Shown here: positions 505-30,080 of the stretch, piece by piece | How the letters are laid out: the number at the start of each line of letters is the position of its first letter | Numbering within the stretch: the first letter of the stretch is position 1 | Source of the DNA: Pseudarthrobacter sp. C4D7 | Lineage (GTDB): Bacteria; Actinomycetota; Actinomycetes; Actinomycetales; Micrococcaceae | NCBI RefSeq assembly: GCF_013359725.1 | Contig: NZ_JABFMW010000001.1 | Span: 1 to 64,000 of the forward strand | DNA length: 64,000 bases | Direction of reading: 5' to 3' | Translations under genes and position numbers: made by a program | Notes under the pieces: model-generated | What the model was told of the DNA's origin: nothing | What the model saw: only the letters and a program-made list of their open reading frames with translations | The model's database searches: none

Positions 505-540
505 TTGAGTCAACCTTGAGGGTAGACCGCAGGGTAAATT
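505..540 (+). promoter_or_regulatory. 11-bp-period direct repeat and putative promoter of the Bcs-like operon
   Basis: TTGAG at 505-509 and 516-520 are separated by 6 nt (TCAACC), giving an 11-bp period typical of OmpR-family regulator sites. A -10-like TAAATT lies at 535-540; transcription would start near 547, just before the ATG at 566. Similar repeats occur at 14880-14895 and 58499-58514. The regulator is unknown; the orphan response regulator at 17445 is a candidate by inference only. Confidence 0.4.
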
Positions 541-565
541 GAGTTCGCCCCGCCAAGGTGGAGGC

Positions 566-8878: not shown

Positions 8879-9119
8879 CGCTGCCAGGGCGGCGAGTTCG
8901 GCTGATGTCTCAGCTTATCGATGCCCAGGTAACCCCTCGGCGCGCCGGCCTGATCTCGCAGCGTATGTCCTCTTTCGATGCGCGAGCCTGTTACCGCTGC
9001 TCGTAGCGCCTGACGCGGCCCGAATGCGGGTGTCGAAAAGGACTGCCCGCGTCAATGGCGACCGTGCGCGTCGCCAAGAGCTGCCACCTGCCGTCGTCCG
9101 TCAAACTCGCACCACACGC
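8879..9119. other. intergenic without gene
   Basis: No supported coding frame. Contains GACGCGGCCCGAATGCGGGTGTCG-type palindromic scraps (about 9010-9075) distantly like the intergenic repeats at 29.4, 34.0 and 61.1 kb, then runs into the terminator at 9120. Confidence 0.4.
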
Positions 9120-9156
9120 AAGGTGCCCGCCCCAAACGAACGGGGGCGGGCACCTT
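9120..9156 (-). terminator. hairpin terminator downstream of the hydroxyacid dehydrogenase
   Basis: Perfect 14-bp stem AAGGTGCCCGCCCC (9120-9133) and its complement (9143-9156) with a 9-nt loop, 16 nt past the stop of the minus-strand gene. No long U tract, as is usual in high-GC actinobacteria. Confidence 0.75.
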
Positions 9157-9171
9157 CGGTACAGCGGGGGA

Positions 9172-10362
9172 CTAGACGAGCACGCTCTCGGCCGGTGCCC
9201 CCTGCGCCTGCCCAGCGAAGATGCTGGGGTCCAGGTCCGCCACCGACGACTTGCCCACGAAGCCCATGGCGCCCTTGAACTCCTCTTGGAGGATCCCGAA
9301 CACCCGGTCCACCGCAGGCTCGCCTCCGGTGGCCAGGGCGTACGCGAACGGTCGGCCGGCGAGGGCCGCCTTGGCGCCGAGGGCCACGGCCTTGACGATG
9401 TCGTGCCCGCGGCGGATGCCGCCGTCGAGGTAGATCTCCGCCCGGCCGCCCACGGCGTCCACGATGGAGGGCAGGACGTCGATGGTGGCGGGCTGGGAGT
9501 CGAACTGCCTGCCGCCGTGGTTGGAGACGAAGATGCCGTCCGCGCCCTCGTCCACGGCCCGGGCCGCGTCCTCGGCGTCCATGATGCCCTTGATCACCAG
9601 GTTCCCCTTCCACCCGGAACGGAGCCTGGCGAAGTCCTCCCAGTTGGCGCCCGGGTTCTTGTTGGAGGCCATCCAGTTGTTCATCTCATCCATGCGCAGC
9701 GGCCGGCCGTTGATCTGGTAGTTCCCGTACGTCATCTTCCGGCCGGTGAGCCACCGCCACAGCCACGCCGGGCGGGTGGCGGCGTTGAAGTAGTCCGCCA
9801 CCGGCGGGCGCGGGGGCATGGACAGCCCGTGGTGGAGGTCCCGTTCGCGCTTGCTGGAGGACCCGACGTCGCCCGCCACCACCAGCGTCTCCACGCCCAC
9901 GGCGCGGGCCCGGTTGATGTAGCTGGCCGTCTCCGCCGGGTCCTTCCAGAACGCGATCTGCGCCCACAGGTTGTCCGGCGCCACCTTGGCCACCTCCTCC
10001 AGGGAACAGCCCGCCCAGGCGCTGTGGATGAAGATGGACCCCGCCCGGACCGCGGCGCGGGCCACGGCCGGATCGGACCCCGGGTGGAAAATGGTGAGCA
10101 TGCCCATGGGCGCTACCATCAGCGGCATGGCCAGGGAATGGCCCAGCACGGTGGTGGAGGTGGTCAGGCCGCGGAGGTCCACCATGGAACGCTGGCGGAG
10201 CATCAGGGCATCAAACCGGTCCTCGTTGGCGCGCATGGTGGTCTCATCCAGCGCGCCGCCCTCCAGATAATCCGAAATCATCCTGGGCAGCTGCCTCCGG
10301 GACGCCCGGCGGTAGTCATCAATGCTGACAATCCATTTGTTTCTCAACGGTCCTGCTCCCAC
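9172..10362 (-). CDS. FMN-dependent alpha-hydroxyacid dehydrogenase (LldD/mandelate dehydrogenase type)
   Basis: 396 aa TIM barrel. Family signature SNHGGRQ (280-286) with the catalytic His282, Lys258 in the FMN site, and the FMN phosphate loop DGGIRRG (313-319) are all present. The family oxidises L-2-hydroxyacids (lactate, glycolate, mandelate) to 2-oxoacids using FMN. Start: GTG 10362 has no ribosome binding site; TTG 10347 follows GGGAGCAGGA and may be the true start. It begins 8 nt after the ABC ATPase gene, so it is the last gene of the importer operon; the importer probably brings in its substrate or a precursor. The exact substrate cannot be told. Confidence 0.85.
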   Translation of the reverse strand: MGAGPLRNKWIVSIDDYRRASRRQLPRMISDYLEGGALDETTMRANEDRFDALMLRQRSMVDLRGLTTSTTVLGHSLAMPLMVAPMGMLTIFHPGSDPAVARAAVRAGSIFIHSAWAGCSLEEVAKVAPDNLWAQIAFWKDPAETASYINRARAVGVETLVVAGDVGSSSKRERDLHHGLSMPPRPPVADYFNAATRPAWLWRWLTGRKMTYGNYQINGRPLRMDEMNNWMASNKNPGANWEDFARLRSGWKGNLVIKGIMDAEDAARAVDEGADGIFVSNHGGRQFDSQPATIDVLPSIVDAVGGRAEIYLDGGIRRGHDIVKAVALGAKAALAGRPFAYALATGGEPAVDRVFGILQEEFKGAMGFVGKSSVADLDPSIFAGQAQGAPAESVLV

Positions 10363-10370
10363 GTGTTGGT

Positions 10371-11131
<761 letters not shown>

Positions 11132-14053: not shown

Positions 14054-14173
14054 ATGGGTGGAAAGCCGTGGGCACCAGGTGCCCGGAATCAAGGACAGTA
14101 CGACGGCGGCGCGTGCTGCCCGCCGCTGGGCCGCGGAGACATTGCCGGTTGGCGGTCCTGGAGGCATCTGTGA
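14054..14173 (+). CDS. 39-aa leader-type peptide coupled to the HPt-like gene
   Basis: ATG 14054 follows a strong AAGGGGGAG. The frame (MGGKPWAPGARNQGQYDGG...) ends TGA 14171-14173, overlapping the GTG start of the HPt-like gene by 2 nt (GTGA). It has Gly, Trp and two adjacent Cys and no membrane span. Either a real micro-protein or a translated leader whose main job is coupling. Predicted from RBS and overlap only. Confidence 0.4.
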   Translation: MGGKPWAPGARNQGQYDGGACCPPLGRGDIAGWRSWRHL

Positions 14174-14565
14174 TCCAGGGGGACGGCCACGAGTTGCCCC
14201 TGCTGGATAGTTCCGTGCTGGCACGGCTGCGCGATGAAACCGATGACGACGACGGGATCTGGCGTCTCTTCGTGCGGAACTTCATTGATCAGATGCCGCC
14301 CCGGATCGAGAAGCTGCGCAGCACGCTGACCAGCGGCGACGCCAAGAGCGCGATGACCGCCGTCCTGAGCCTGCGGACATCGGCGCAGATGGTGGGCGCC
14401 GAGCTGCTGGCCGGCCTGGCCCTGGAGCTGGAACGTGCGGTGCGCAAAGCCGCCGCCGGGCCCGATCCGGCCGGCGTGCTGCCGCACCTTGCCGCACAGC
14501 ATCTGCGCAGGATCCTGCATTCCGGGCAGCGGACCAAGGACCATCTGGAGGCGGCCATAGCGTAG
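14170..14565 (+). CDS. HPt-like protein lacking the phospho-acceptor histidine (second copy)
   Basis: 131 aa from GTG 14170, with GGAGG at 14160-14164. VLSLRTSAQMVGAELLAGLALELE (shown here in part) aligns with the paralogue at 6301 and with the HPt motif; the His position is Leu66 in both proteins and the following Lys is Arg. The N-terminus (LLDSSVLARLRDETDDDDGIW) matches the first helix of HPt domains. Transcribed from the 13962 promoter variant, probably after a leader peptide. As phosphotransfer is impossible, it is likely a docking or decoy partner of a receiver protein; the orphan response regulator 3 kb downstream shares the promoter motif. Role inferred. Confidence 0.6.
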   Translation: MIQGDGHELPLLDSSVLARLRDETDDDDGIWRLFVRNFIDQMPPRIEKLRSTLTSGDAKSAMTAVLSLRTSAQMVGAELLAGLALELERAVRKAAAGPDPAGVLPHLAAQHLRRILHSGQRTKDHLEAAIA

Positions 14566-17444: not shown

Positions 17445-18239
17445 GTGTTGGAGCGCGGGACGGTAGTGGTTGTCGAGGATGACCCGGACATCAGTGTGGT
17501 GGTGTCCGGGATCCTGCGGGAGGCAGGATTCGGCATCCACGCCTTTGACCAGGGGCAGGCCGGTGTTGACGCCGTCAACAGGCACATGCCCGAGGTAGTG
17601 GTGGTCGACCTGGGGCTGCCGGATATTGACGGGTTCGAAGTGACCCGGCGCATCCGGACCTTCAGCAACGCCTACGTGCTGATCCTGACGGCCAGCAGCC
17701 AGGAACTGGACACCATTCTGGCGCTGGAGGCCGGTGCCGATGACTACCTCACCAAGCCTTTCCGCGCCCGCGAGCTGCGGTACCGGGTGGAGGCACTGCT
17801 GCGCCGCCCCCGGCTCCGGACGGACACGCCCCACCTCACGGCGTCGTCCCTCATGCTGACCGCAGCACCGGAACAGGCGCCGGCCGCCGAAACCCCGGAC
17901 GCGCCGGAATCGCTGGCCCACAACGGCCTGCGCCTGAATGTCTCCACCCGGACGGTGAGCGTTGACGGGGCCGAAGTCCGCGGACTGACAGCCTCCGAAT
18001 TTGAGCTGCTGCACACCATCCTGGTCAACGGACGGGTTGTCCAGAGCAAGGAGGACCTGGCCCAGTCCATGCGCGGTGGCGTGGAGGACCTGGACCGCGC
18101 ACCGGATGAACAGGTGATCCAGGTGCACATCGCCAACCTCCGGCGGAAACTCGGCGACAGCGCCGCCAAACCCCGCTGGATCGAGACCGTGCATGGGTTC
18201 GGCTACCGGCTCGCGGCACCCCTGGAACCGGAGAACTAA
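17445..18239 (+). CDS. orphan OmpR/PhoB-family response regulator
   Basis: 264 aa from GTG 17445 after a GGGGG. Receiver domain (about 6-120) has acidic E11/D12, phospho-acceptor Asp55 (VVVVDLGLPDIDG), Thr82 and Lys104 (LTKPF), all intact. A Pro/Ala linker (about 125-160) leads to a winged-helix DNA-binding domain (GLTASEFELLHTIL ... VHIANLRRKLGD ... GFGYRLA). No histidine kinase lies next to it. Since OmpR-family proteins bind direct repeats with an 11-bp period, it is a candidate reader of the TTGAG-N6-TTGA repeats in this window, and the two His-less HPt-like proteins are possible receiver partners; both are inferences. Confidence 0.92.
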   Translation: MLERGTVVVVEDDPDISVVVSGILREAGFGIHAFDQGQAGVDAVNRHMPEVVVVDLGLPDIDGFEVTRRIRTFSNAYVLILTASSQELDTILALEAGADDYLTKPFRARELRYRVEALLRRPRLRTDTPHLTASSLMLTAAPEQAPAAETPDAPESLAHNGLRLNVSTRTVSVDGAEVRGLTASEFELLHTILVNGRVVQSKEDLAQSMRGGVEDLDRAPDEQVIQVHIANLRRKLGDSAAKPRWIETVHGFGYRLAAPLEPEN

Positions 18240-19249: not shown

Positions 19250-20713
19250 GTGAAAGCGTTGCACTGGCTGGGTGCCGTCCGGACAATGGCCCGTCCGCGC
19301 GGCAGGGCACGGGTCATGACCAACGCTGCCGCGGCATTGACCCTGCTGGCGGGCCTGTTCTCCCTCAGCCTCACGTCCGCCGCCACCGTTCCGAGCGCCA
19401 CGGCCGCGGACATCAAGCCGGGGGAGTGGGTTTCCCTGGCCTCCGGCCCGGTCCCGGCCACCAACCCGCTGCAGGGATTCGTCCCGTACGCCGGACAGTA
19501 CAACTCCCTGCCGTATTCCATGGAATGGTTCTACCTCCCGGTGAACGCAGTGGCCACCGGGCCGGGGACCTACGACTGGTCCGCCCTGGAAGCGCAGCTG
19601 AACGCCATTGCCGCGCGCGGCCATCAGGCCGTCTTCAGGTTCTACCTGGACTACCCCGGCAAGCCCACCGGCGTTCCCGCCTACCTGCTGGACGCCGGCC
19701 TGGCCACCCACGCCTACACCGACTACGGCAACCAGGGCATCAGCGTTTCCCCCGACTACAACGATCCGCGCCTGGCCCAGGCGGTGGACAGCTTCATTGC
19801 TGCCTTTGGGTCACGGTACGACGGCGACCGGCGCATCGGCTTCATCCAGGCGGGCCTGCTGGGCTTCTGGGGCGAATGGCACACCTACCCGCACGACGGG
19901 TGGGCTACGCCGGAAAACTGGTCCGCCTCGGCCACGGGACAACAGCTGGTCCTGCAGGCCTACACGGCCGCCTTCACCAAGACCAAGGTGCAGGTGCGGT
20001 ACCCCTCCACGGCCAACAGCAATATGAACGTGGGGTACCACGACGATTCGTTCGCCGCCGAAACCCTGCCCGGATCCGGCTGGAGCTTCGTGGACAAACT
20101 GCAGCAGGCCGGCGCAACGGGTAAATGGCTCACCCAGCCGGTGGGCGGGGAACTCCGGCCCGAACTTCAGCAGTGCCTGTTTGACGCGAATCCGTGCTCC
20201 TGGGCCGCTCCGGAGCAGCGGGACTTCACCGGGAGCGTGGCGGCGACGCATGCCTCCTGGCTGCTCAACCAGTACGCCTTCAGCCCGGCCTACGTGGGGA
20301 CCGCGCAGGCAACTGCCGCCGCGGCGTCCCAGTCCCTGGGCTACCGGTTCCAGGCCACCGGCTTCTCCCTGGCGCCGGGAACGGTGGCTGGGCAAAGCAC
20401 CCTCAGCGTCACCATCCGGAACACCGGGGCGGCGCCGTTCTACTACGACTGGCCGGTGCAGGTGGCTGCGGTGGGCGGCGACGGGAAGATCGCCAGGACC
20501 TGGACCACGTCCTGGCGCCTGACCGCCATCAAACCCGGCATGGCACCCACCCTGGCAACACCGCTTAGTACCGGAGGGCTCCCGGCAGGTCCCTACACGC
20601 TGGTCCTGCGGCCGGTGAACCCGTTGGCCAACGGCGTCCCGCTGCGCTTCGCCAACGCCGGCCAGGACCAGACCCTGCCTGGCTGGCTGACGCTGGGGCG
20701 CACGTCCGTTTAG
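19250..20713 (+). CDS. secreted DUF4832-type protein (TIM-barrel, GH-like)
   Basis: 487 aa starting at GTG 19250 with AGGAAG upstream. Long basic n-region, hydrophobic core (about 25-42) and an Ala-rich cleavage site: Sec signal peptide. The mature part has the DUF4874/DUF4832 pattern: NPLQGFVPYAG near the start, MEWFYLPV, RFYLDYPG, GFIQAGLLGFWGEWHTYP (barrel strand with conserved Trp/Glu), then a beta-sandwich end with ...TIRNTGAAPFYYDWPVQV. The family is unassigned but looks like a glycoside hydrolase with carbohydrate-binding module. It ends 10 nt from the convergent galE of the Pel-like operon, so it may act on the same polymer. Confidence 0.75.
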   Translation: MKALHWLGAVRTMARPRGRARVMTNAAAALTLLAGLFSLSLTSAATVPSATAADIKPGEWVSLASGPVPATNPLQGFVPYAGQYNSLPYSMEWFYLPVNAVATGPGTYDWSALEAQLNAIAARGHQAVFRFYLDYPGKPTGVPAYLLDAGLATHAYTDYGNQGISVSPDYNDPRLAQAVDSFIAAFGSRYDGDRRIGFIQAGLLGFWGEWHTYPHDGWATPENWSASATGQQLVLQAYTAAFTKTKVQVRYPSTANSNMNVGYHDDSFAAETLPGSGWSFVDKLQQAGATGKWLTQPVGGELRPELQQCLFDANPCSWAAPEQRDFTGSVAATHASWLLNQYAFSPAYVGTAQATAAAASQSLGYRFQATGFSLAPGTVAGQSTLSVTIRNTGAAPFYYDWPVQVAAVGGDGKIARTWTTSWRLTAIKPGMAPTLATPLSTGGLPAGPYTLVLRPVNPLANGVPLRFANAGQDQTLPGWLTLGRTSV

Positions 20714-20723
20714 GCTTCTTGGG

Positions 20724-21779
20724 TCAGAGCAGTGCCGGGGCGGCCTGCGGGATGGCGGCTGCCGCCTCTTCGCGGTAGCCGTTGGGATTGTTCTGCTGCC
20801 ACCGCCAGGCGTCGGCACACATGTTTTCCAGCGTTTCGGACGCCTTCCACCCCAGGTCGCGGAAGGCCGCCGTCGGATCCGCCAGGCTGACCGGGGCGTC
20901 ACCCGGACGCCGCTCCGCCACGCTGTAGGGGACCGGCGTCTGCGCCGCGTGTTCAAAGGCGCGGATGATCTCCAGGACCGAATGGCCGCTGCCGCTGCCC
21001 AGGTTCCAGGTGTGCACACCGCGGTGGGCGGCCAGGTAGTCAAGGGCCGCCAGGTGTCCGGCGGCGAGGTCCATCACATGGATGTAGTCCCGGACCCCGG
21101 TGCCGTCCGGCGTGGGGTAGTCCCCGCCGAAGACGTTCAGCTTGTCCCGGCGCCCTACGGCCACCTGCGTGACGTACGGGAAGAGGTTGTTCGGCGGGCC
21201 CTGCGGGTCCTCACCGATCAGGCCGGACGGGTGCGCGCCCACCGGGTTGAAGTAGCGCAGGAGGGCCAGCCGCCACCGCGAGTCGGAGGCCTGCACGTCC
21301 GTGAGGATTTCCTCGATCTGCTGCTTGGTCCTGCCGTAGGGGTTGGTGGCCCCCAGCCGGCTGTCCTCCGTCAGTGGCATCTGCGGGTTGCTGCCGTAGA
21401 CCGTGGCGGAGGAGCTGAACACCAGGGTCCGCACGCCGTGGGTGTCCATGGCCTCCAGCAGGTTCAGGGTGCCGGTGACGTTGTTGCGGTAGTAGCGCAG
21501 CGGCTGGGACACCGATTCGCCCACGGCCTTCAGGCCCGCGAAGTGGATCACCGCATCAACCTGCGCGGCAGCGAACACCCGGTCCAGGGCCGCCGGGTCC
21601 GTGATGTCCGCATGGTGGAAGGCCAGGCTGCGGCCGGCGAGCTGCTGGACGCGCAGCAGCGATTCCTCCTGGGAGTTGCTGAGGTTGTCCACCGCCGTGA
21701 CGTCATGCCCGGCCTGGAGCAGCTGGAGGATGGTGTGGGAGCCGATGTACCCGGAACCGCCGGTAACCAGAACTTTAAT
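20724..21779 (-). CDS. galE: UDP-glucose/UDP-N-acetylglucosamine 4-epimerase (GalE family)
   Basis: About 351 aa. Rossmann motif VLVTGGSGYIGSHT at the N-terminus, VDNLSNS, YxxxK-type catalytic site (NPYGRTKQQIEEIL), YFNPVGAHPSG and VRDYIHVMDLA, all typical GalE. The start is odd: homologues begin MKVLVTGG, but the codon here is ATT (21779-21777), overlapping the upstream stop as ATTAA, with GAGGG just upstream. In-frame TTG 21803 and ATG 21830 would add 8 or 17 unusual residues. In the Pel pathway a GalE-family epimerase (PelX) supplies UDP-GalNAc, and the gene context here fits that role. Substrate preference is not readable from sequence. Confidence 0.88.
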   Translation of the reverse strand: MKVLVTGGSGYIGSHTILQLLQAGHDVTAVDNLSNSQEESLLRVQQLAGRSLAFHHADITDPAALDRVFAAAQVDAVIHFAGLKAVGESVSQPLRYYRNNVTGTLNLLEAMDTHGVRTLVFSSSATVYGSNPQMPLTEDSRLGATNPYGRTKQQIEEILTDVQASDSRWRLALLRYFNPVGAHPSGLIGEDPQGPPNNLFPYVTQVAVGRRDKLNVFGGDYPTPDGTGVRDYIHVMDLAAGHLAALDYLAAHRGVHTWNLGSGSGHSVLEIIRAFEHAAQTPVPYSVAERRPGDAPVSLADPTAAFRDLGWKASETLENMCADAWRWQQNNPNGYREEAAAAIPQAAPALL

Positions 21780-22857
21780 GTCTCTGCCCTCGCTGATAGA
21801 CAACCCCGCTCTGCGGAGCCAGAACAACATGGTGGGGTGCCGGCTGCCCGGCGGCGTCAACCAGCCCGGAAGGGACCTTGACGCGGCGACGGCTGCGGCC
21901 GTCATTGTTGAAGTTCACTGCCGCCCAGCCGCCGCTGAACGTCCGCTGCCACACGTGCCGGCGGCCCTGGGGCTGCCCCTGCGGATCCCCCAGGGGCCAG
22001 TCCAGTTCCGCGATGTGCTGGGTGCGGCTGTAGTCGTCGTGGCCCGTGGCCGTGTAGGAGCCCGCGCCGCCGCCGAAGATCCAGAACGCCGCCAGGCCGT
22101 ACCTGAAGTTGGGGTGGGCGTCGTCGCCGTCGGTGGGGACGCGAAGGATGGACAGGCCGGGCCCGTCCGCCTGGGCCAGCTGCGCCTCGGCCGTGCGGGG
22201 ATCGAACAGGTGGGCCGGCCCGTAGCCCAGCCACACTTCCTCGAAGCCGCCGCCGTACGCCGCGTGGGAGTCCCAGCGGCCCGGCAGGCGCCGGGATTCG
22301 GCAATGTTGGGCACCAGCACCTTGCCAACGCCGTTCAATGCTGCGCCCGCCGCGTGGACCAGCGTGTCCAGGCCGTCCCGGAAGTCGGCCATGGAGGCTG
22401 CCTCCTGGACCGGGGGCCGGATACCGTAGTAGTCCTCGAAGACGTCGTTGTCCGCCATGACCCCGTCAAAGGGGGAGCCGTCCAGTTCGGTGGTGACGTT
22501 CTGCACCCAGCGGGCACGGTAGGCCGGGTCCCAGACCTTCATCTGCCAGTGCCCGCCGTAGCCGTTCCACTCGATGCGCCCGCCGTTCAGCCGCGTGGCG
22601 AACCAGGCGCCGCCGTCGTCCTCTGCCTCCCGGTACGTCACGCCGGAACTGTAGATGGGCCCCGGTTCGTAGGCGCGGGTGGAGGACAGGCACTTGTAGC
22701 AGAGGACCGTCATGTCCGGGCGGCGGCGCTTGAGCTCCGCCGCCGCATCCAGCTCCCACGGCTGCAGGATGGCCGCACGGTAGTGCTCCGCCGCGAAGTC
22801 GATCTGCTCCCGGGAGATGGGATCCCCGTAGCGGATCCACGCACCCACACCGGTCAC
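21775..22857 (-). CDS. putative TIM-barrel glycoside hydrolase in the Pel-like operon
   Basis: 360 aa from GTG 22857, overlapping the stop of the PelF-like gene (GTGA). No signal peptide. Reads as a barrel: GAWIRYGDPISREQIDFAAEHY, strand-like TVLCYKCLSS, WVQNVTTEL, FDGVMADNDVFEDYYG with clustered acidic residues, KVLVPNIAES, then a beta-domain end (AVNFNNDGRSRRRVKV). Pattern resembles the hypothetical hydrolase family GHL15 and the GH114/spherulin-4 group that includes the alpha-1,4-polygalactosaminidase domain of PelA. The lack of export signal means it may act inside or be non-classically exported. Ends coupled to galE. Confidence 0.6.
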   Translation of the reverse strand: MTGVGAWIRYGDPISREQIDFAAEHYRAAILQPWELDAAAELKRRRPDMTVLCYKCLSSTRAYEPGPIYSSGVTYREAEDDGGAWFATRLNGGRIEWNGYGGHWQMKVWDPAYRARWVQNVTTELDGSPFDGVMADNDVFEDYYGIRPPVQEAASMADFRDGLDTLVHAAGAALNGVGKVLVPNIAESRRLPGRWDSHAAYGGGFEEVWLGYGPAHLFDPRTAEAQLAQADGPGLSILRVPTDGDDAHPNFRYGLAAFWIFGGGAGSYTATGHDDYSRTQHIAELDWPLGDPQGQPQGRRHVWQRTFSGGWAAVNFNNDGRSRRRVKVPSGLVDAAGQPAPHHVVLAPQSGVVYQRGQRH

Positions 22858-24587
22858 AGCGGAACCACGGTGAGGGCCTCGGTGGGAAGCTGGTTGGCCG
22901 TGTCCAGGTCCGCCGGTTCCGCTACCGGGAGGTCGCCCAGCGCGCGGTAGATCTGGTTGTAGGAGGACATGACCTCGTGCATCTGGAAGAACTCCTGCAC
23001 GCGGGTGCGGGCGTTGGCCGCGTAGGTGCCGTAGGCGTCCAGGTTGCCGATCACGGCCTGGACGGCGTCCGCCATCTGCACCACGTTGCCCGGGGTGACC
23101 GTTTCGCCGCACGCGCCGATGGTCTTCCCGGCCGTGGTCAGCAGGTCATCGGCGATCAGCTGGGCCACGCCGCCAACATCGGAGCCCACCGTGGGGATGC
23201 CGGCCGCCATGGCTTCCAGGATCACGATCGGCTGGCCCTCGTTGTAGCTGGGGAGCACCAGGAGGTCGAACTGGTCCAGCATCTCGCGGACGTTGACGGT
23301 GCCGTGGATGGTTACCTTGTCCTGCAGGCCCAGGGCCTCGATCTTGGCCAGGCAGGCCTCGTAGTATTCGGGCACGTGCTCGGTGGGGCCCAGCACGTCC
23401 AGGTGCAGGTTGGGGTACCCGCGCTCCACCAGGACCTCCATGCTGGAGAGCAGGTCAAGCAGGCCCTTGATGGGCACCACGCGGGCAATGTAGACCAGCC
23501 GCCACACGTGGTCCGCGGCGTTTTCCCCGATGGTCTCCAGGGCCTGCCGGCGGGCCCGGAACTTCTCGTCGAACTCCTCGATGACCATGCCGTTGGGCAC
23601 CACCACGGACTTGTCGATGTCGGTGCCCAGGCGGGCAGCCTCGGTGATGGCGGTGGGGTACAGGTAGGTGATCAGGCGGGCGCTGGGGTAGCAGAAGCGG
23701 CCCATTTCCGTCCACCAGGCCATCCAGGCGCGCTGCTCTGCCGTGACGTCGAAGGTCCGGTAATCCTCTGCCGTGATGGACAGGGCCATGTTCCGGTCCA
23801 GCAGGGTGTTCACGGTGTCCCGGACGTACAGGTTGTGCTCGGTCAGCAGGAACGCGGTGTCATGGTCCCGTGCGGCCGCCGCGCCCAGCAGGGAGGCGTA
23901 GCCGGTGGTGTGCGCGTGGTAGACCTTGGCCCGGGGCATGGTCTCCCCGGTAATGGCGTAGGCCAGGGAGAAGAAGTTCCGCAGCACCCAGAAGGATTCG
24001 GCCAGCGGCAGGTTCAGCTGCGGCATCCGGTCCTGCAGGGCCTGCATGAATTCCCGGGACCCCAGCAGGGCCCACAGGGGGAACTGCCGGGTGCGCCGGT
24101 TCAGGCCCTGGTCAATCAGGTCCCACAGCGGCTCCACCTCGCCGCGTTCAGACAGGGCGTAGATGGCGTCGAACAGGCGGTGGGACAGCTCCTCGCGCTG
24201 CCTGGAGTCCATGCCCAGGTCCTTGACGGTGGCCGCCATGTAGTCGTGCCGGTGCTCCTCCATGCTGAGGAACACGGTCCGGACCCAGAGCACGTTGGCG
24301 GGCATGCCGTAGAGGTCCGTCAGCGGCGCGCTGGAGTCCCAGGTGATGTGGATGATGCCGTAGCTGAGGTCCGGGTTGTGGGTGACGATGTCGTGCACCA
24401 CGGCCGAGACGCCGCCCTTGAGGTACGGGTAGGTGGACTCCATCACGATGGCCACGTCAACGTCCTGGTACTCGAGCTCCCGGGCCGCGGCAACCGGGCC
24501 CGCCGCAGCTGCCGGTGACGCGGAGAGCGCCAGCGGGGCCGGGTTGCTGTTCCAGCGGGTCTTAAGGTTCTTTAGGGTCGAGTACAT
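22854..24587 (-). CDS. PelF-like GT4 glycosyltransferase
   Basis: 577 aa, no membrane spans. An Ala-rich N-terminal tail of about 40 residues, then the PelF-type opening VDVAIVMESTYPYLKGGVSAVVHDIV. GT4 (GT-B fold) features: VYHAHTTGYASLLGA, LLTEHNLYVRDT, VVPNGMVIEEFDE, VYIARVVPIKGL, and the donor-site block LPSYNEGQPIVILEAMAAGIP (in part) with the E-x7-E pattern, here as E...E around 480-490. PelF polymerises the Pel (GalNAc/GlcNAc-type) chain from UDP-sugars in other bacteria. It follows the PelG-like gene after 80 nt and overlaps the next gene by 4 nt. Confidence 0.8.
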   Translation of the reverse strand: MYSTLKNLKTRWNSNPAPLALSASPAAAAGPVAAARELEYQDVDVAIVMESTYPYLKGGVSAVVHDIVTHNPDLSYGIIHITWDSSAPLTDLYGMPANVLWVRTVFLSMEEHRHDYMAATVKDLGMDSRQREELSHRLFDAIYALSERGEVEPLWDLIDQGLNRRTRQFPLWALLGSREFMQALQDRMPQLNLPLAESFWVLRNFFSLAYAITGETMPRAKVYHAHTTGYASLLGAAAARDHDTAFLLTEHNLYVRDTVNTLLDRNMALSITAEDYRTFDVTAEQRAWMAWWTEMGRFCYPSARLITYLYPTAITEAARLGTDIDKSVVVPNGMVIEEFDEKFRARRQALETIGENAADHVWRLVYIARVVPIKGLLDLLSSMEVLVERGYPNLHLDVLGPTEHVPEYYEACLAKIEALGLQDKVTIHGTVNVREMLDQFDLLVLPSYNEGQPIVILEAMAAGIPTVGSDVGGVAQLIADDLLTTAGKTIGACGETVTPGNVVQMADAVQAVIGNLDAYGTYAANARTRVQEFFQMHEVMSSYNQIYRALGDLPVAEPADLDTANQLPTEALTVVPL

Positions 24588-24667
24588 GGTTGTTTCCTCA
24601 CCTGGTGTTCTGAAGGCTCAAGAGTTTCGGACTGACGGAGGGACGTGCTGCGGCGGCGGGAGCCGGG

Positions 24668-26128
24668 TCACCACGTGGTGGCGTGCCGCCAAAAGAGCGT
24701 GTATTCGGGCTGGCTCCAGTGCCGCTTGTAGAGCGTCCAGCCGACGGCAATGAGGACGAAGTCCGCAGCGCCCAGGATCAGGTAGCTGGCCGAGTGCAGC
24801 GACGAGCCGATCAGGGAGGCGCCGCCGGCGAAGGCTGCGATGCACGCGGCAAGGTGCACGGCGCCCAGGATCTGGGGCGTGACCTGCTCCCCGATGAAGT
24901 CCAGCTCGTAGTTCAGGAGCGTGAGCAGCATGAAGGTCCATGAGGCCAGGGCGGCGGCGACCGTCAGGACCGTGTTGGCGGGATCCAGGCCGGATACTGC
25001 CAGCGAGACCGTGAGGGTCAGCAGCGCCGCGATGGCTCCGGTGAGCACCACGGAGCGGTCCAGGACGCGGACCAGCCGGTTGGAGCTGCCCTTGAGGACG
25101 CTGACCGGGGCGGTGGCGATGTCCTTGTGCAGCCTGCCGAGGGCCCGGTCCACGCCGGGGGCCAGGTGGACGAAGTAAAAGTTGTAGGCGATGACGGCCG
25201 GGAGCATGGCGGCGAAGACGGCCACCACCTGGAACGCGCCGCCGGTCACCAGGAACAGGGCGTACTTGTCAGCCCAGAGGACGGCGCCCATGAGCAGGCC
25301 GCGGATCAGGTCCGTACCGAAGACGCGGGCGCCCAGGTGCTGGGTGAAACTCATGTGGCGCAGGCCGGAGCGCATGGCCACCAGTTGCGTGGCGGTTCCC
25401 ACCAGCGGCGGCAGCCACCACAGGGTGGGTGCCAGGAACAGTGCGGCGGCGTAGCCGGACCAGGCGGCAGCCCAGAGGCCGCGGCGGTTGGCCACGTTGG
25501 CCAGCACCAGGGACTGGACGAACAGCAGGTGCAGGACGCACAGCACCACGTAATGCATCATGGCGTCCCAGGCCCAGCCGGTGGCCAGCCACAGCGGAAC
25601 CGCGAACACGGCCACCAGCGGCAGGGACTGGATGAACATCATGGGCCAGAACTGGCAGAACCGGCGCGTGATCTCGCCGATGTTGCGTTCGGCCATGAGA
25701 TCACCGAGCACGCGGTAGATGGGAAGGCAGGCTGCCTGCGCCAGCCACGGCACCGTAACCGAGGAGGCGAGCACCACGTAGGTCAGCGGCACGCCCGCGA
25801 CGTCGATGCCGGCCATGGCGGGGCTGACCAGCGGGTAGACCGCGTTCAGCAGCAGCACCGGGGACAGATAGAGGAGCAGGGCCGCACCCAGGCGTTCCTG
25901 GGAACCGCCGGCGGCCCGCTGGTCCGCTTTGGAGATGCGGGGCGTGGCGATGAGCGCCACCGCCAGGAGCAACGGCAGGATGGCTGCCGCCAGGACCAGG
26001 ACGGGGGAGCCGTCCGTCAGGAACCGGCTGCCGAACGGCACCATGCCGGAGAGCACCAGGCCGACGATGACGAACACGAACATTTGGCGGGCATAGGTGT
26101 CTTGCAGCAAATATTTCAGTGACGTCAT
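24668..26128 (-). CDS. PelG-like polytopic membrane protein (exopolysaccharide exporter)
   Basis: 486 aa, about 12 hydrophobic segments spread over the whole length (Wzx/MATE-like). The N-terminal LLQDTYARQMFVFVIVGLVLSGM and the cytoplasmic segments (ISKADQRAAGG, RRFCQFWPMMFIQSLPL, ADKYALFLVTGGAF) match the layout of PelG, the Pel export subunit. AAGGAAG precedes ATG 26128. First gene of the operon PelG-PelF-hydrolase-GalE. Identification rests largely on pairing with a PelF-like gene; the pair is diagnostic of Pel-type systems. PelD and PelE equivalents are not found in the window. Confidence 0.72.
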   Translation of the reverse strand: MTSLKYLLQDTYARQMFVFVIVGLVLSGMVPFGSRFLTDGSPVLVLAAAILPLLLAVALIATPRISKADQRAAGGSQERLGAALLLYLSPVLLLNAVYPLVSPAMAGIDVAGVPLTYVVLASSVTVPWLAQAACLPIYRVLGDLMAERNIGEITRRFCQFWPMMFIQSLPLVAVFAVPLWLATGWAWDAMMHYVVLCVLHLLFVQSLVLANVANRRGLWAAAWSGYAAALFLAPTLWWLPPLVGTATQLVAMRSGLRHMSFTQHLGARVFGTDLIRGLLMGAVLWADKYALFLVTGGAFQVVAVFAAMLPAVIAYNFYFVHLAPGVDRALGRLHKDIATAPVSVLKGSSNRLVRVLDRSVVLTGAIAALLTLTVSLAVSGLDPANTVLTVAAALASWTFMLLTLLNYELDFIGEQVTPQILGAVHLAACIAAFAGGASLIGSSLHSASYLILGAADFVLIAVGWTLYKRHWSQPEYTLFWRHATTW

Positions 26129-26807
26129 GTCTTCCTTCGGGCGGCAGGCGGGAGCTGAGAAACCGGTTGCCAGGGCACACGCGACCAGTCAGCCGCGCCC
26201 AGGGCAGCGGTGACGTCAGCGTCGTGAAGCAGTAGGGGTGTAAACGGGAGACCGGAGATGGGGACCGGCGGCGACTGGGGGAGTGCTGCCCCGTCTCAGA
26301 AGGGCGCACACCGCCGCCGGCCCCGGCTAAACCCGGGCAGCCCCTGCTGGGGAACCCGGAACCTTGCGGGGGGCGTAAAAAACGCGTTCCGCTCCACGTA
26401 GGAGCGGCCCGCAGATGACACTATGAGGCCAAGATCAAGAACGGACCATTAAATCGGTTAATAAAAATCCAATGATTTGAGCAAAGGTTCATAAGGCTTC
26501 CTTAAGAAAATTGGAGCCGTGTTAAGCCGCGCCGAATCCGGTCCTGCCGGAGAGCTACGCAAAAGTGCTCATCATGCTTACTGGTGGTGTTCCCTGCTGA
26601 GGCGGGGCGGAGAAGCCGCGGAGCGGCGGGTGTGGGGCGCCCGCGGCGGGCCAGCGTTTCGTGGTGGCCACGGCGGGGGCGCGCCCAGGGCACCGTGGCG
26701 GCCCGACGGCGGACGTACCGCCGTGGGGTGGGGCGAACCCGCGCGGGACGCGGGACAGACCGGGATGAAACGGCAGCCTGAAGAGTTCCGGGCCCGGATT
26801 GCGGCAC
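26129..26807. other. gene-free control region upstream of the Pel-like operon
   Basis: No supported gene. The part from 26420 to 26520 is distinctly A/T-rich in a high-GC setting, with ATAAGGCTTCCTTAAG and TTGAGCAAAGGTTCAT elements. Between it and the PelG start lie about 290 nt of GC-rich, palindrome-rich sequence (for example GCTCC-acgta-GGAGC at 26391-26405), so the transcript may have a long structured leader. I could not match a known riboswitch. Confidence 0.45.
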
Positions 26808-26862: not shown

Positions 26863-27420
26863 TTAGTCCTCACCCTCCTGGGTCCGCAGGCGGCGCCGGA
26901 TCAGGAACCCGGCCACCACCAGACCGATGACCAGGACCGCGGCAACGATCCCCACCACAACCAGCTGCGCGGGAACCGCGTTGTCCGCGGTGGCGGTGGT
27001 GGAAGCGGGGGCCGCCGCGGGCGAGGAGTTCGGGCCGCCGGCGGTGAAAGTGAACGTCCCTTCAATGGGGTGGCCGTCCGAGGACACCACCCGCCACACC
27101 ACGGTGTACTTACCCTCCGGAGTGCCCGGCTTGACCGGCTGGCTGACCACGTTGTCCACGATCTGCACCGGCCCGTCCGCCTGGTCGGTGCCGGTGGCGT
27201 CCTCCACCCGGACAATCGAGTTGATCGCGATGGGGGTGTGGTCGAAGGTCAGCTCGATCTTCGCCGGCATGGCACTGACCGTGGATCCGTTGGCCGGATT
27301 GCTGGAGTCCAGGGAGTCGTGCGCCTGGGCCGGCGCTGACGAAACCAGCAGGAACGCGGCGGTGGCCAGCGGCAGCAGGACGCGTGCCAGCCAGGCCGCC
27401 GGGAATGACGTTCGCTTCAC
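26863..27420 (-). CDS. CopC-domain copper-binding protein, membrane anchored
   Basis: 185 aa. Signal peptide ending AQA, mature protein begins with His (HDSLDSSNPANGS), the usual Cu(II) ligand of CopC. The domain includes IELTFDHTPI and the second site VSSDGHPIEGTFTF. A Ser/Ala/Thr linker precedes a C-terminal span (about 153-175) and a basic tail. Known CopC-type proteins bind periplasmic or extracellular copper. Last gene of the locus with YcnI (10 nt upstream). Confidence 0.9.
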   Translation of the reverse strand: MKRTSFPAAWLARVLLPLATAAFLLVSSAPAQAHDSLDSSNPANGSTVSAMPAKIELTFDHTPIAINSIVRVEDATGTDQADGPVQIVDNVVSQPVKPGTPEGKYTVVWRVVSSDGHPIEGTFTFTAGGPNSSPAAAPASTTATADNAVPAQLVVVGIVAAVLVIGLVVAGFLIRRRLRTQEGED

Positions 27421-27429
27421 GGCCCGGCC

Positions 27430-28164
27430 CTACTTTCCGGCGGTGCGGGTGCGGCGGCCGGCGAGAACCAGCGCCAGGGCGGCTGCACCGAGCACCAGGC
27501 CTGCCGCGCCCAGGACCACGCCCCAGACGGACGTGGCGTCACTGGAAACCTCTGCGGTCCGGGATACTTCCCCGTCACTGTGGGACGCCGTGGAATGGGA
27601 CGCGGCAGCAGCGTCGTCGGCCGTTGTCACGAACGACGGAGCCGGGTGCTTGGGCTCCGGCTGCCCTTCGGCGCTTTCTTCATCCCACTTCACCACGCTG
27701 CCGTCCGTGTACGTCTGCGCAGCCTTCAGGGTCACCGTGGTGCCTTCGGCGGGGAGCCGGCCCACCGAGAGTGAGAACGCCTGGTACTGGTTCTGGCCCA
27801 GCTGGTGGGCCTCGTCCGCGGTCCAGACCACCGAGACGGGGGCCTTGGTGACCGTGGCACCTGCGACGGTGACGGGCTTGGGCAGGTCACCGGTGACCAC
27901 CTGCGCGGTCCAGCCCTCCACCGGCTTGACAGACACGGAGGTGAACGGGGTATCGGTGGGCAGCGAGACCTCGAGCTTGCTGGTCTTCGCAGTGGGGGAT
28001 TCGTTGGGGACGTTGAACGTCAGGTGGGAGTAGCCGTTGGCGGCGGTGTCGTCCGGGTCCACGCTGACGTGGGCGGACGCGGCGGTGGCGCCTGCGGCGA
28101 CGATTCCGGCGGCGGCAGCTGCGGCGGTGAGGGTCTTGAGGGTACGGCGGAATGAGGTGTTCAA
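27430..28164 (-). CDS. YcnI-like (DUF1775) copper-associated protein
   Basis: 244 aa. Signal peptide ending ASA, mature N-terminus His-Val (HVSVDPDDTAANGYSHLTFNVPNES) as in YcnI, where this His starts the copper site. The DUF1775 core includes PTDTPFTSVSVKPVEGW and VVWTADEAHQLGQNQYQAFSLSVG. A low-complexity linker and a C-terminal span (about 215-236) anchor it. DUF1775 proteins sit with CopC/CopD in many Gram-positive bacteria, as here. Confidence 0.9.
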   Translation of the reverse strand: MNTSFRRTLKTLTAAAAAAGIVAAGATAASAHVSVDPDDTAANGYSHLTFNVPNESPTAKTSKLEVSLPTDTPFTSVSVKPVEGWTAQVVTGDLPKPVTVAGATVTKAPVSVVWTADEAHQLGQNQYQAFSLSVGRLPAEGTTVTLKAAQTYTDGSVVKWDEESAEGQPEPKHPAPSFVTTADDAAAASHSTASHSDGEVSRTAEVSSDATSVWGVVLGAAGLVLGAAALALVLAGRRTRTAGK

Positions 28165-28293
28165 GGCAAGCCTTCCAAAGGGTGCGCCAAGGGGACCGCG
28201 TGTGCGGCGGCGCGAAAAAAGTTGGACAGCGCGGCGGCCCTTCCTGGCCTGGGTGTGGGCAGGTGGGGACGGCGCGGAGGGGTCGGCAGCCGC

Positions 28294-28917
28294 TTAGAGT
28301 GCGGCCTGGAAGGCCGGTGGCCCGCGGAGGGAAGGCAGCCGCAGGTTGCGCCAGCGGAAAGGAATAACGACGGCGGCCGGCGCCGGGATGTGCGGCCACT
28401 CCGGGATGGCGATGGCGGCCAGGATCCGGACGAGGGGGCGCAGCCAGGCGGCCAGCGCCCATGCGGCTGCCTCGCCCTTGGCCAGGACCAGCGCCGTGGC
28501 CAGGGTTGCCGCGGCGTGCAGGCCCAGCATCAAAGCTCCCGGCACGGCGGCATGCTCAGGCATCAGGGCAGCGGCCGTGGCGGAGTCCGGCAGGGCGCCG
28601 TGGACGTGGGCGCCTTCAGCCGGGGTGAAGGATGTGGACACAGAGAAGGCGTCGAAAGCCCAGTGGAGGAACAGTTGGCTGGACGCCAGGAGCCCGACCA
28701 TTACCGGGGCGGTGATCTTGACCTTCGAGAGAATGGTGACCGGTGCCAGCACCAGTGCCACGATTCCGGCGGCGATGACCGGCTGCGGCAGGACGCCGCC
28801 GGCCAGTACGTGGGCACCTGCGGCCAGGACAAGCATGGCGGCGGTGAAGGCCATGGCCCGGGGGAGGCGGAACGGAGCACTCACGCTATTCGCCGCCCTT
28901 CCCTCTACAGTTGCCAC
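28294..28917 (-). CDS. polytopic membrane protein of the copper locus
   Basis: 207 aa with four to five hydrophobic segments (AMAFTAAMLVLAAGAHVLAGG onward). His residues cluster between spans (LFLHWAF, GAHVHG, MPEHAAVPGALMLGLHAAA), which fits metal handling. First gene of the copper group, 129 nt before YcnI. No family name is secure; role inferred from context and His content. Confidence 0.65.
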   Translation of the reverse strand: MATVEGRAANSVSAPFRLPRAMAFTAAMLVLAAGAHVLAGGVLPQPVIAAGIVALVLAPVTILSKVKITAPVMVGLLASSQLFLHWAFDAFSVSTSFTPAEGAHVHGALPDSATAAALMPEHAAVPGALMLGLHAAATLATALVLAKGEAAAWALAAWLRPLVRILAAIAIPEWPHIPAPAAVVIPFRWRNLRLPSLRGPPAFQAAL

Positions 28918-29005
28918 CTCTACTTTAGGGAACTGCGGGGCCCAGCAGGTAATCCGTGGGGCAGTGGACCGGTGGCCGTGAATTCAGGGTTCGGGGCGCG
29001 GCGCG

Positions 29006-29055
29006 GGAAGGCCCCCGGCCTGCGTGAACTGTCCACCACCGGCCGGGGGCTTTCC
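29006..29055 (-). terminator. hairpin terminator downstream of the 68-aa gene
   Basis: Stem GGAAGGCCCCCGGCC (29006-29020) with GGCCGGGGGCTTTCC (29041-29055), one mismatch or G-U pair, 20-nt loop. Lies 23 nt past the minus-strand stop. Confidence 0.65.
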
Positions 29056-29078
29056 TGTGCTGCTGGGGATGCTGCCCG

Positions 29079-29285
29079 CTACTCCGCGAGCTTGGCCACC
29101 GACTGCGCCCAAAGGAAGAACTTGTTGGTGCCCAGGTCCTTGACCGTCTTGATGTTCAGGGCCTCTTTGAGCTTCTGCGCATCGCTTTCGGACAGGCCCT
29201 TGAGTGCCTCCACCGGCGCTGCAGCCAGCTCATCGATGCCCTTGTCGAGGTATTCCTTGTCGAACTTCGCGTTGATTCCAGCCAT
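29079..29285 (-). CDS. 68-aa soluble helical protein, helix-hairpin-helix-like
   Basis: MAGINAKFDKEYLDKGIDEL..., all-helical. LAAAPVEALKGLSESDAQKLKEALNIKTVKDLG reads like a helix-hairpin-helix (Rad51/Pol beta N-domain type) repeat: GL...A..L...I.TV.DL. AGGAGG lies just before the ATG. Stand-alone gene with its own terminator. Function unknown; nucleic-acid binding is possible. Confidence 0.7.
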   Translation of the reverse strand: MAGINAKFDKEYLDKGIDELAAAPVEALKGLSESDAQKLKEALNIKTVKDLGTNKFFLWAQSVAKLAE

Positions 29286-29389
29286 ACTGTCCTCCTGGTG
29301 CTCGTTGGGGCCTCACTGTGCCGTGGGACACACTCGATATTCAACCACGGCGCCCTTTGAACGGCGCCCTGTTAGCCGGGTGTGGTGCG

Positions 29390-29600
29390 CGCAGCCGTCG
29401 TACGTTTCTGGCCTTGTCCGACGCGCCCCGCCGTTCTCGCTGCGTTGCGTCATTCTCGACGCGCCCCGCCGCCGCCGACCCGCCCCGCATCTTTCGCTGC
29501 GCAGATTCCCGGGCGCACCCCAAATGTGGGCCGCGAAAATGAGCCTGCGCGTCGCGGACGGATTTGCGCGTCGAGGAACGGACCCGGGCGCGGGAGCGGG
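29390..29600. repeat. palindromic intergenic repeat, copy A
   Basis: Between 29286 and 29609 there is no gene. The stretch has two CGACGCGCCCCGCCG blocks (about 29419 and 29456), a core CCCAAATGTGGGCCGCG (29518-29534) and inverted CGCGTCG blocks (29548-29554 and 29568-29574). The same order of GACGCGC arms round a TGTGGGCCGCG-type core is seen at 34015-34115 and 61132-61236. Confidence 0.5.
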
Positions 29601-29609
29601 AACCGGCTC

Positions 29610-30080
29610 CTACCGCGTGTCCACGTCCTCGAACACCAGGAACGTCTGCGTGTCCAGCACGCCGGGCATGGTCTGCAGCTGGTCGAAGATGACCCGGCGC
29701 AGGTCGATGTTGTCCACGGCGCGGACCAGCAGGATCACGTCGAAGTCGCCACCCACCAGCGCAATGTGGTGCACCTCCGGGATGGCACCGAGCTGGTCGC
29801 GGAGTTCGCGCCAGGAATCCTGCTTCAGCTTCAGCGTGACGTAGGCCGAGGATTTGAGCCCTGCCTTGATGGGGTCCACCAGCGCCGTGAACCGGGTCAG
29901 GACCCCATCCGCCGTGAGCCGGTTGATCCGGGAGTAGGCGTGCGCCCGCGAAATGTGCACGTTTTCGGCCACCTGGGTAACCGACATCCGGCCGTCCCTG
30001 GTGAGCTCGGCGATGATCCGGCGGTCTATTCCGTCCAGCGGAACCTCGGCAGCAGCATCCTTGCCCGGCATTTTGTCCAC
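29610..30080 (-). CDS. Lrp/AsnC family regulator (BkdR-like)
   Basis: 156 aa from GTG 30080; ATG 30071 is an alternative. N-terminal helix-turn-helix (about 17-65, LDGIDRRIIAELTRDGRMSVTQVAENVHISRAHAYSRINRL, shown in parts: VTQVAENVHISRAHAYSRI) and C-terminal RAM/AsnC domain (KSSAYVTLKLKQ, HHIALVGGDFDVILLV). Divergent from the 2-oxoacid dehydrogenase operon; AsnC-type BkdR proteins activate such operons in response to branched-chain amino acids, so that role is likely. An inverted repeat lies between the genes. Confidence 0.88.
   Translation of the reverse strand: MDKMPGKDAAAEVPLDGIDRRIIAELTRDGRMSVTQVAENVHISRAHAYSRINRLTADGVLTRFTALVDPIKAGLKSSAYVTLKLKQDSWRELRDQLGAIPEVHHIALVGGDFDVILLVRAVDNIDLRRVIFDQLQTMPGVLDTQTFLVFEDVDTR

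Follow-up and report, generated by a model that had tools for sequence, protein, structure and literature searches.

A probable diverged and reduced Pel-type exopolysaccharide operon with a structured leader RNA in Pseudarthrobacter sp. C4D7

The stretch of DNA analysed here (hereafter the window) comprises 64,000 nucleotides, positions 1 to 64,000 of contig NZ_JABFMW010000001.1, from the 4.32-Mb genome of Pseudarthrobacter sp. C4D7 (GCF_013359725.1, family Micrococcaceae). At 20724-26128 it carries four genes, all on the minus strand, which a preliminary description had read as a reduced Pel-like exopolysaccharide (EPS) cluster; open reading frame (ORF) calls and domain profiles bore out the four genes, which are real and conserved. 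The locus is probably a diverged and reduced Pel-type EPS operon with its own control. The operon and the leader element ahead of it consist of the following features.

24668..26128, minus strand: PelG-like polytopic membrane protein, 486 aa, a putative diverged MOP-type exporter (Foldseek, PelG profile comparison)
22854..24587, minus strand: PelF, DUF3492 plus GT4 glycosyltransferase, 577 aa (NF038011, tree, invariant columns)
21775..22857, minus strand: GHL15 putative glycoside hydrolase, 360 aa, GTG start (PF14885, N-termini)
20724..21779, minus strand: GalE, 351 aa, probable AUU start, Ser at E. coli position 299 (TIGR01179)
26249..26336, minus strand: leader RNA element (covariation, covariance model)

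Three of the genes overlap, as had been claimed. PelF and GHL15 share 22854-22857, where the GTG start of GHL15 overlaps the PelF stop, and GHL15 and galE share 21775-21779 (ATTAA), where the TAA stop of GHL15 overlaps an ATT of galE; between the PelG-like and PelF genes there is a gap of 80 bases. The GHL15 ORF had been drawn to 23112 and the galE ORF to 21905, both over-extended, with likely starts at 22857 and 21779, respectively. As the ATT is found at this site in 9/9 galE copies, three of which have no in-frame ATG, GTG or TTG upstream, an AUU within ATTAA is the most probable translation start of galE.

The order PelG-like, PelF, GHL15 is kept in all 14 loci read in context (the window, L010-L019, L061, L076 and L077, found with the PelG-like protein or PelF as query), so the arrangement is not due to chance. 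L018 and L019 carry frame breaks; alignments A1 and A3 therefore omit L018, and A1 omits L019 too. The L077 sequence (9059-10775) is a decayed remnant of the PelG-like/PelF/GHL15 set in a 2.0-Mb genome. The cluster of L019 has its relatives in the Micrococcaceae but sits on a contig whose title reads Vibrio cholerae 35D, a record that is probably mislabelled or contaminated.

Polymerase, epimerase and hydrolase

The PelF-like GT4 glycosyltransferase of the preliminary description was supported by profile and tree alike. The window protein scored 245.5 bits against NF038011 (cut-off 100), and 51 of the 72 columns that are invariant in eight reference PelFs are retained in five Arthrobacter-type PelFs. 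The tree held 36 proteins: 8 Arthrobacter-type PelFs chosen from a larger number, 11 PelFs from reference loci (7 of which have pelG annotated next door), 15 PelFs from other actinobacteria, Deinococcus and Thermus, and 2 GT4 outgroups, both from the window's own genome and the usable ones of five candidate GT4 loci. The Arthrobacter-type proteins joined the PelFs of the 11 reference loci (support 95/87), apart from the outgroups, so that the feared grouping with unrelated GT4 families was not seen, and the 15 other PelFs formed a separate branch (98/97). Since the reference PelFs on their own form a clade with support of only 66/27, the Arthrobacter-type group, which has a long branch (2.76), may stand either beside or inside them. 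Judged by its sequence, the window glycosyltransferase is a genuine PelF. A phmmer comparison of the PelG-like, PelF and GHL15 proteins with solved structures gave no match at the limits set.

GalE had been proposed as the supplier of UDP-N-acetylgalactosamine (UDP-GalNAc), and its gatekeeper residue fits that prediction. The protein matched TIGR01179 well above the cut-off (452.8 bits, cut-off 262.3), and by hand count its Ser298 falls opposite residue 299 of the E. coli enzyme (1lrk), a cysteine. The serine is present in 9/9 cluster copies, while a second GalE of the genome above the same cut-off (L072) has phenylalanine; rows L071 and L073 are left out of this comparison. According to the accessible part of PMC5349592, the Neisseria enzyme with serine uses UDP-Glc and UDP-GlcNAc, the enzyme with phenylalanine uses UDP-Glc only, and S299F abolished UDP-GlcNAc use; broad-specificity enzymes have a small Cys or Ser at this position (PMC6668579, in the portion available). 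The cluster GalE is thus predicted to accept UDP-GlcNAc/GalNAc too.

The third gene had been described as encoding a TIM-barrel hydrolase related by pattern to PelA/GH114-type enzymes. The first part of this stood, as the protein matches a hydrolase family and resembles GH114 locally (P 0.0018 over 71 columns); the second did not, as the family is GHL15 (PF14885: 175.9 bits, cut-off 27, E 2e-51), which rules out GH114, and GHL15 takes the place of the PelA-type hydrolase (GH114/GH166) looked for in the cluster enzyme. Its structure model (predicted local distance difference test, pLDDT, 49) matched endo-fucanase (GH168) barrels, which we took as support for a TIM barrel only, and catalytic activity is predicted. 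The protein starts right at its conserved domain and has no visible signal peptide: on the Kyte-Doolittle 15-residue scale, a crude measure and not a signal-peptide predictor, a hydrophobic N-terminus was found in 0 of 13 usable GHL15 copies (14 rows, maximum 0.64).

On the plus strand, three further genes flank the operon.

19250..20713, plus strand: DUF4832/DUF4874 protein, predicted secreted, start codon uncertain (PF16116, hydrophobic N-terminus)
17445..18239, plus strand: OmpR-type response regulator (PF00072 + PF00486)
14068..14565, plus strand: Hpt-domain protein, 165-aa ORF (PF01627, 31.2 bits, cut-off 24.6)

The first of these is the DUF4832-type secreted protein that had been said to face the cluster, and both its profile match (PF16116: 34.7 bits, cut-off 29.2) and its N-terminus agree with that prediction, with a hydrophobic N-terminus in 8/8 usable copies (10 rows). 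DUF4832 stands beside the operon in 9 of the 14 context loci, and it is in nine of these loci that GalE and DUF4832 together join the PelG-like/PelF/GHL15 trio. In three others (L016, L019 and L076), an unnamed protein with a hydrophobic N-terminus (3/3) follows GHL15, bringing the loci with a predicted secreted partner to 12/14.

There is some chance, though a small one, that GHL15 is exported by a route that does without a signal peptide and serves as the customary Pel hydrolase outside the cell. A signal sequence is present in PelAH, the B. cereus hydrolase (PMC7112168, in the part available), and the annotated polygalactosaminidase of L064 reached only 1.19 on our hydropathy measure, showing that hydropathy can miss a signal peptide. 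Against export of GHL15 stand the secreted partner already predicted in 12/14 loci and the recurrence of a comparable pairing elsewhere: among 28 other actinobacterial PelF loci (L078-L105), tblastn over the DNA read found a Spherulin4 gene in 25 and a GH114 gene in 14. These loci were drawn from the PelF matches of the class search, 24 of the 28 share one genus label, and the tblastn queries came from the same loci; Pfam confirmed three Spherulin4 and two GH114 proteins. The Spherulin4 rows mostly lack a hydrophobic N-terminus (25/26), while the GH114 rows mostly have one (14/16). L078-L105 also carry an unnamed polytopic protein family. We retain the view that GHL15 may sit inside the cell and trim or clear nascent chains, the least certain step of our proposal.

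The membrane protein and other Pel components

The preliminary description had called the first gene product PelG or PelG-like and had listed failure of the PelG profile as a possible refutation; PF16933 matched neither this protein nor any other in the genome, and the name as written does not hold. An ordinary PelG is thereby ruled out, and profile searches gave the exporter no significant family match. What stood is the polytopic exporter, of apparent MOP-type resemblance and with a distant likeness to PelG. In its AlphaFold2 model, of low confidence (pLDDT 55), the first 36 Foldseek matches were all MATE/MOP, MurJ or WzxE chains (best E 0.0038). Using hhalign with a profile of 11 PelGs, we obtained a local match around a W-x-D-K motif (84 columns, P 0.0022), to which hhalign's own probability was only 13 %. 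The score of 34.5 was above those of all 200 column shuffles (maximum 23.5; 0/200 as good), of the alignment when reversed (18.5) and of 15 further membrane proteins (maximum 26.1, an ABC permease). W-x-D-K is collinear, being present in 11/11 PelG-like sequences and at positions 241-266 in 9/11 PelGs, and in 0/7 other PelF-adjacent membrane proteins. Four of the 11 reference PelGs lack a PelG annotation (L107 is hypothetical; L108, L110 and L111 were chosen by ORF position in unannotated records). We read the protein as a very distant PelG relative outside PF16933, as far as its sequence allows.

The PelG-like protein occurs in 3/394 genomes of the class and in 20/245 genomes of the family (5/32 genera), while PelF exceeds its cut-off in 27/394 genomes of the class and PF16933 is found in six, each a local match of 30-35 bits.

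Of the regulatory and modifying components of Pel systems, PelD had been described as missing, and its model (PF16963) was indeed silent in the genome; as that model matched only 2/4 control pel records, absence of PelD is likely but not proven. The genome encodes three GGDEF proteins, ordinary by our own reading. Polysaccharide deacetylase (PF01522) had no match in the window and seven elsewhere in the genome, which leaves room for a polymer other than cationic Pel. Because the tests for PelG, PelD, a deacetylase and the hydrolase gave these results, we do not file the operon as a full Pel member.

These findings bear on two other readings, each of which we consider unlikely. According to the first, this is an ordinary Pel system in which PelD, PelE and the deacetylase lie elsewhere or have diverged beyond recognition, and the product is the usual, partly deacetylated Pel. 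The grouping of PelF with reference PelFs, the GGDEF proteins and deacetylase matches of the genome, the insensitivity of the PelD model (2/4 control records missed) and the naming of actinobacteria among holders of pel loci in the accessible part of PMC7112168 would all suit it; the silent PelD and PelG profiles, the ordinary look of the GGDEF proteins and the window without a deacetylase do not. According to the second, similarly improbable, the membrane protein flips lipid-linked glycans instead of exporting chains as PelG does, and the product of PelF is a lipid-linked or wall glycan. MurJ and WzxE are among the Foldseek matches, and a GH26-like protein encoded near the operon would fit other surface glycans; however, the four operon genes include no initiating sugar-phosphate transferase, and the best motif match was to PelG, in a comparison set that held no MurJ or Wzx profile.

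Control in our preferred reading, that of a diverged Pel-type operon, likely runs through an Hpt/OmpR phosphorelay in place of PelD and cyclic di-GMP (c-di-GMP), to judge from the neighbourhood. Of 11 other loci, eight have a response regulator, six an Hpt protein and six GalU, at differing positions; the same comparison gave no GalU match in the window. One of the 14 context loci lies on plasmid pTC2 of Paenarthrobacter aurescens TC1, typed as conjugative, which bears the whole set; there it is adjoined by what we read as a GGDEF-EAL protein and an RsbU-like protein (annotated as sensory box/regulatory domain proteins).

Elsewhere in the window, plus-strand ORFs at 26927-28033 and 28222-29844 had no Pfam match and were rejected as genes, being read as shadows of minus-strand genes. 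Near the window edge, at 539-4283, a BcsB-like protein (PF03170) is followed by a PMT_2-type protein, which suggests a second surface-polysaccharide cluster.

The leader RNA

The leader element lies at -121 to -208 from the ATG of the PelG-like gene and forms a nested hairpin with an outer stem of 13 pairs, an inner stem of 7, an apical loop near CUGAGACC and a 3' internal loop, CCCCCAG. Neither this element nor the Hpt and OmpR-type neighbours featured in the preliminary description. Covariation shows it to be a folded RNA. In a MAFFT alignment of nine loci, 94.4 % of cells pair, and seven pairs (17 cells) have two-sided changes, compared with at most 57 % paired and three two-sided cells when the pairing is slid. 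Of five measures, three exceeded every one of 500 shuffles; the number of pairs with two-sided changes was matched in 45/500 and that of further pair types in 471/500. Folding z-scores for eight of the nine leaders ranged from -1.3 (L014) to -6.5 (L013), and the L014 leader alone does not take the consensus fold. With 49 copies, all but one scoring at least 51 bits, all five measures lay above 500 shuffles: 98.9 % of cells pair and 17/20 pairs have two-sided changes (201 cells), in an alignment that was fitted to the covariance model and so leans to it. All seven pairs of the inner stem are among those with changes, and there is little variation in the loops near CUGAGACC and CCCCCAG.

Known elements did not account for it. 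Rfam 15 gave no significant match and no family reached its gathering cut-off, ruling out a known Rfam riboswitch; the overlapping matches at chance level included RF02959 (15.5 bits against 40.6, E 2.9). The absence of a long U run from the alignments excludes an intrinsic terminator, and a consensus of one nested hairpin, as opposed to two hairpins with hexaloops carrying A1 and G4, excludes an ANTAR target. A promoter motif look-up in the leader led nowhere, and an exact-pattern search, too strict in its pattern, had no match in 128 loci. In a genome of the same family, L152 (3511-3637) has an Rfam Cis8_sRNA match just under the cut-off (51.5 against 58 bits).

The covariance model matched 9 of the 22 sources with PelG-like DNA, namely the nine used to build it. 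As the other PelG-like loci lack the leader RNA, it is not essential to the system. The best match in 570 kb of other loci reached 21.8 bits, while at E 0.01 or better the model matched 221/395 genomes of the family (19/32 genera), where about four would be expected by chance, the E-values being rough. Up to six copies per genome were seen, among 11 candidates scored per genome; the window genome has four matches, two of them placed.

The genes downstream were surveyed in 40 hand-picked regions, mostly high scorers and hence non-random (L173, of 601 bases, was left out; L178 is the window's own), with gene classes defined from the surveyed loci themselves and genes counted to a distance of 900 nt. 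On the same strand, the 49 copies precede sufS-like genes (10), pelG-like genes (9), EPS sugar transferases (7), an 85-aa protein (6), LuxR-type regulators (3), metallo-beta-lactamase fold proteins (2), ANTAR proteins (2) and single others (3), and 7 precede none of these classes. The seven sugar-transferase copies represent six loci, one with two tandem elements; these, in L168 (4484-4686), are arranged as in some tandem riboswitches. Pfam confirmed six sugar transferases, three LuxR, two ANTAR and two lactamase-fold proteins, and found a class-V aminotransferase in three sufS-like proteins, for which the name sufS is provisional.

That the element is instead a DNA operator or a mobile repeat is very unlikely: its outer stem is near-palindromic and seven copies have no listed gene class downstream, but the changes throughout the inner stem, the constancy of both loops, the sense orientation ahead of sufS-like (10 loci) and pelG-like (9) genes and the number of copies seen per genome (at most six, with 11 candidates scored) speak against it. 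The element is a probable new regulatory RNA class.

Proposed working and comparison with known systems

Taken together, the operon appears to be Pel reduced to polymerase, exporter, epimerase and hydrolase, and to be Pel-like in its working as far as sequence can tell. GalE would make UDP-GalNAc, as its gatekeeper residue suggests, and PelF, to judge from its family, would polymerise this in the cytoplasm; the PelG-like MOP-type protein would pass the chain through the membrane, GHL15 might cut or clear nascent or stalled chains inside the cell, and the DUF4832 protein would act outside. The Hpt/OmpR phosphorelay may replace control by PelD and c-di-GMP, and the leader RNA presumably works at the mRNA level, before the pelG-like gene is translated. 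We also lean, if only slightly, towards the view that the leader is a new Micrococcaceae class of cis-regulatory RNA, working as a riboswitch or a protein-bound control element, by which several EPS operons (among them the present one, in which no PelD was detected), sufS-like genes and LuxR/ANTAR regulator genes share control, and that PelF systems of actinobacteria pair their synthase with a glycosidase inside the cell.

Several of the results above weigh against these proposals: for the exporter, the silent PelG profile and hhalign's own probability; for both structure models, their low confidence; for the polymer, the window without a deacetylase; for GHL15, the score of L064 and an activity that is predicted only; and for the leader, the two measures equalled by shuffles of the nine-locus alignment, the fold of L014 and the PelG-like loci that lack the element.

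If correct, the locus is a measure of the extent to which Gram-positive soil bacteria can pare down a Pel-type synthase and change its regulation, and an example of an operon that could make a Pel-like polymer without PelD. The RNA element ties several surface-polymer operons together across a bacterial family, and its ligand or the protein that binds it can be sought directly; a synthase-coupled hydrolase inside the cell, if true, would add a new step to the control of the polymer. Literature searches, with most subscription journals and preprints outside their reach, found no account of the cluster in Arthrobacter or of the leader RNA among the papers listed, judged by title and the opening of the abstract; PMC7112168 does not name Arthrobacter in the main text available, and its supplementary organism list may name the cluster.

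Among the closest known systems is the Gram-positive pelDEADAFG of B. cereus, which, in the available part of PMC7112168, likewise has PelF and a polytopic exporter, with GalE and a glycoside hydrolase beside the operon. The present locus differs in that PelD was not found in the genome, no deacetylase was found in the window and the exporter lies outside PF16933, as well as in its GHL15 without a visible signal peptide, its Hpt/OmpR neighbours and its leader RNA. Gram-positive loci in which pelF and pelG alone have been identified (PMC7112194, in the part available) share the reduced gene set; those loci came from hidden Markov model matches to pelF and pelG, whereas the PelG model is silent here. 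Other PelF loci (L078-L105 and, on Deinococcus/Thermus plasmids, L066, L112 and L113) also combine PelF with a polytopic protein outside PF16933, but their PelF belongs to the other branch, their membrane protein to another family, and Spherulin4 or a GH114-like protein stands in place of GHL15. The ANTAR-target RNAs (PMC8164766, in the part available) are, like the present element, actinobacterial leader RNAs, and two copies here precede ANTAR-domain genes; they consist of two hairpins with a linker and hexaloops, whereas the element described here consists of a single nested hairpin that contains an internal loop.

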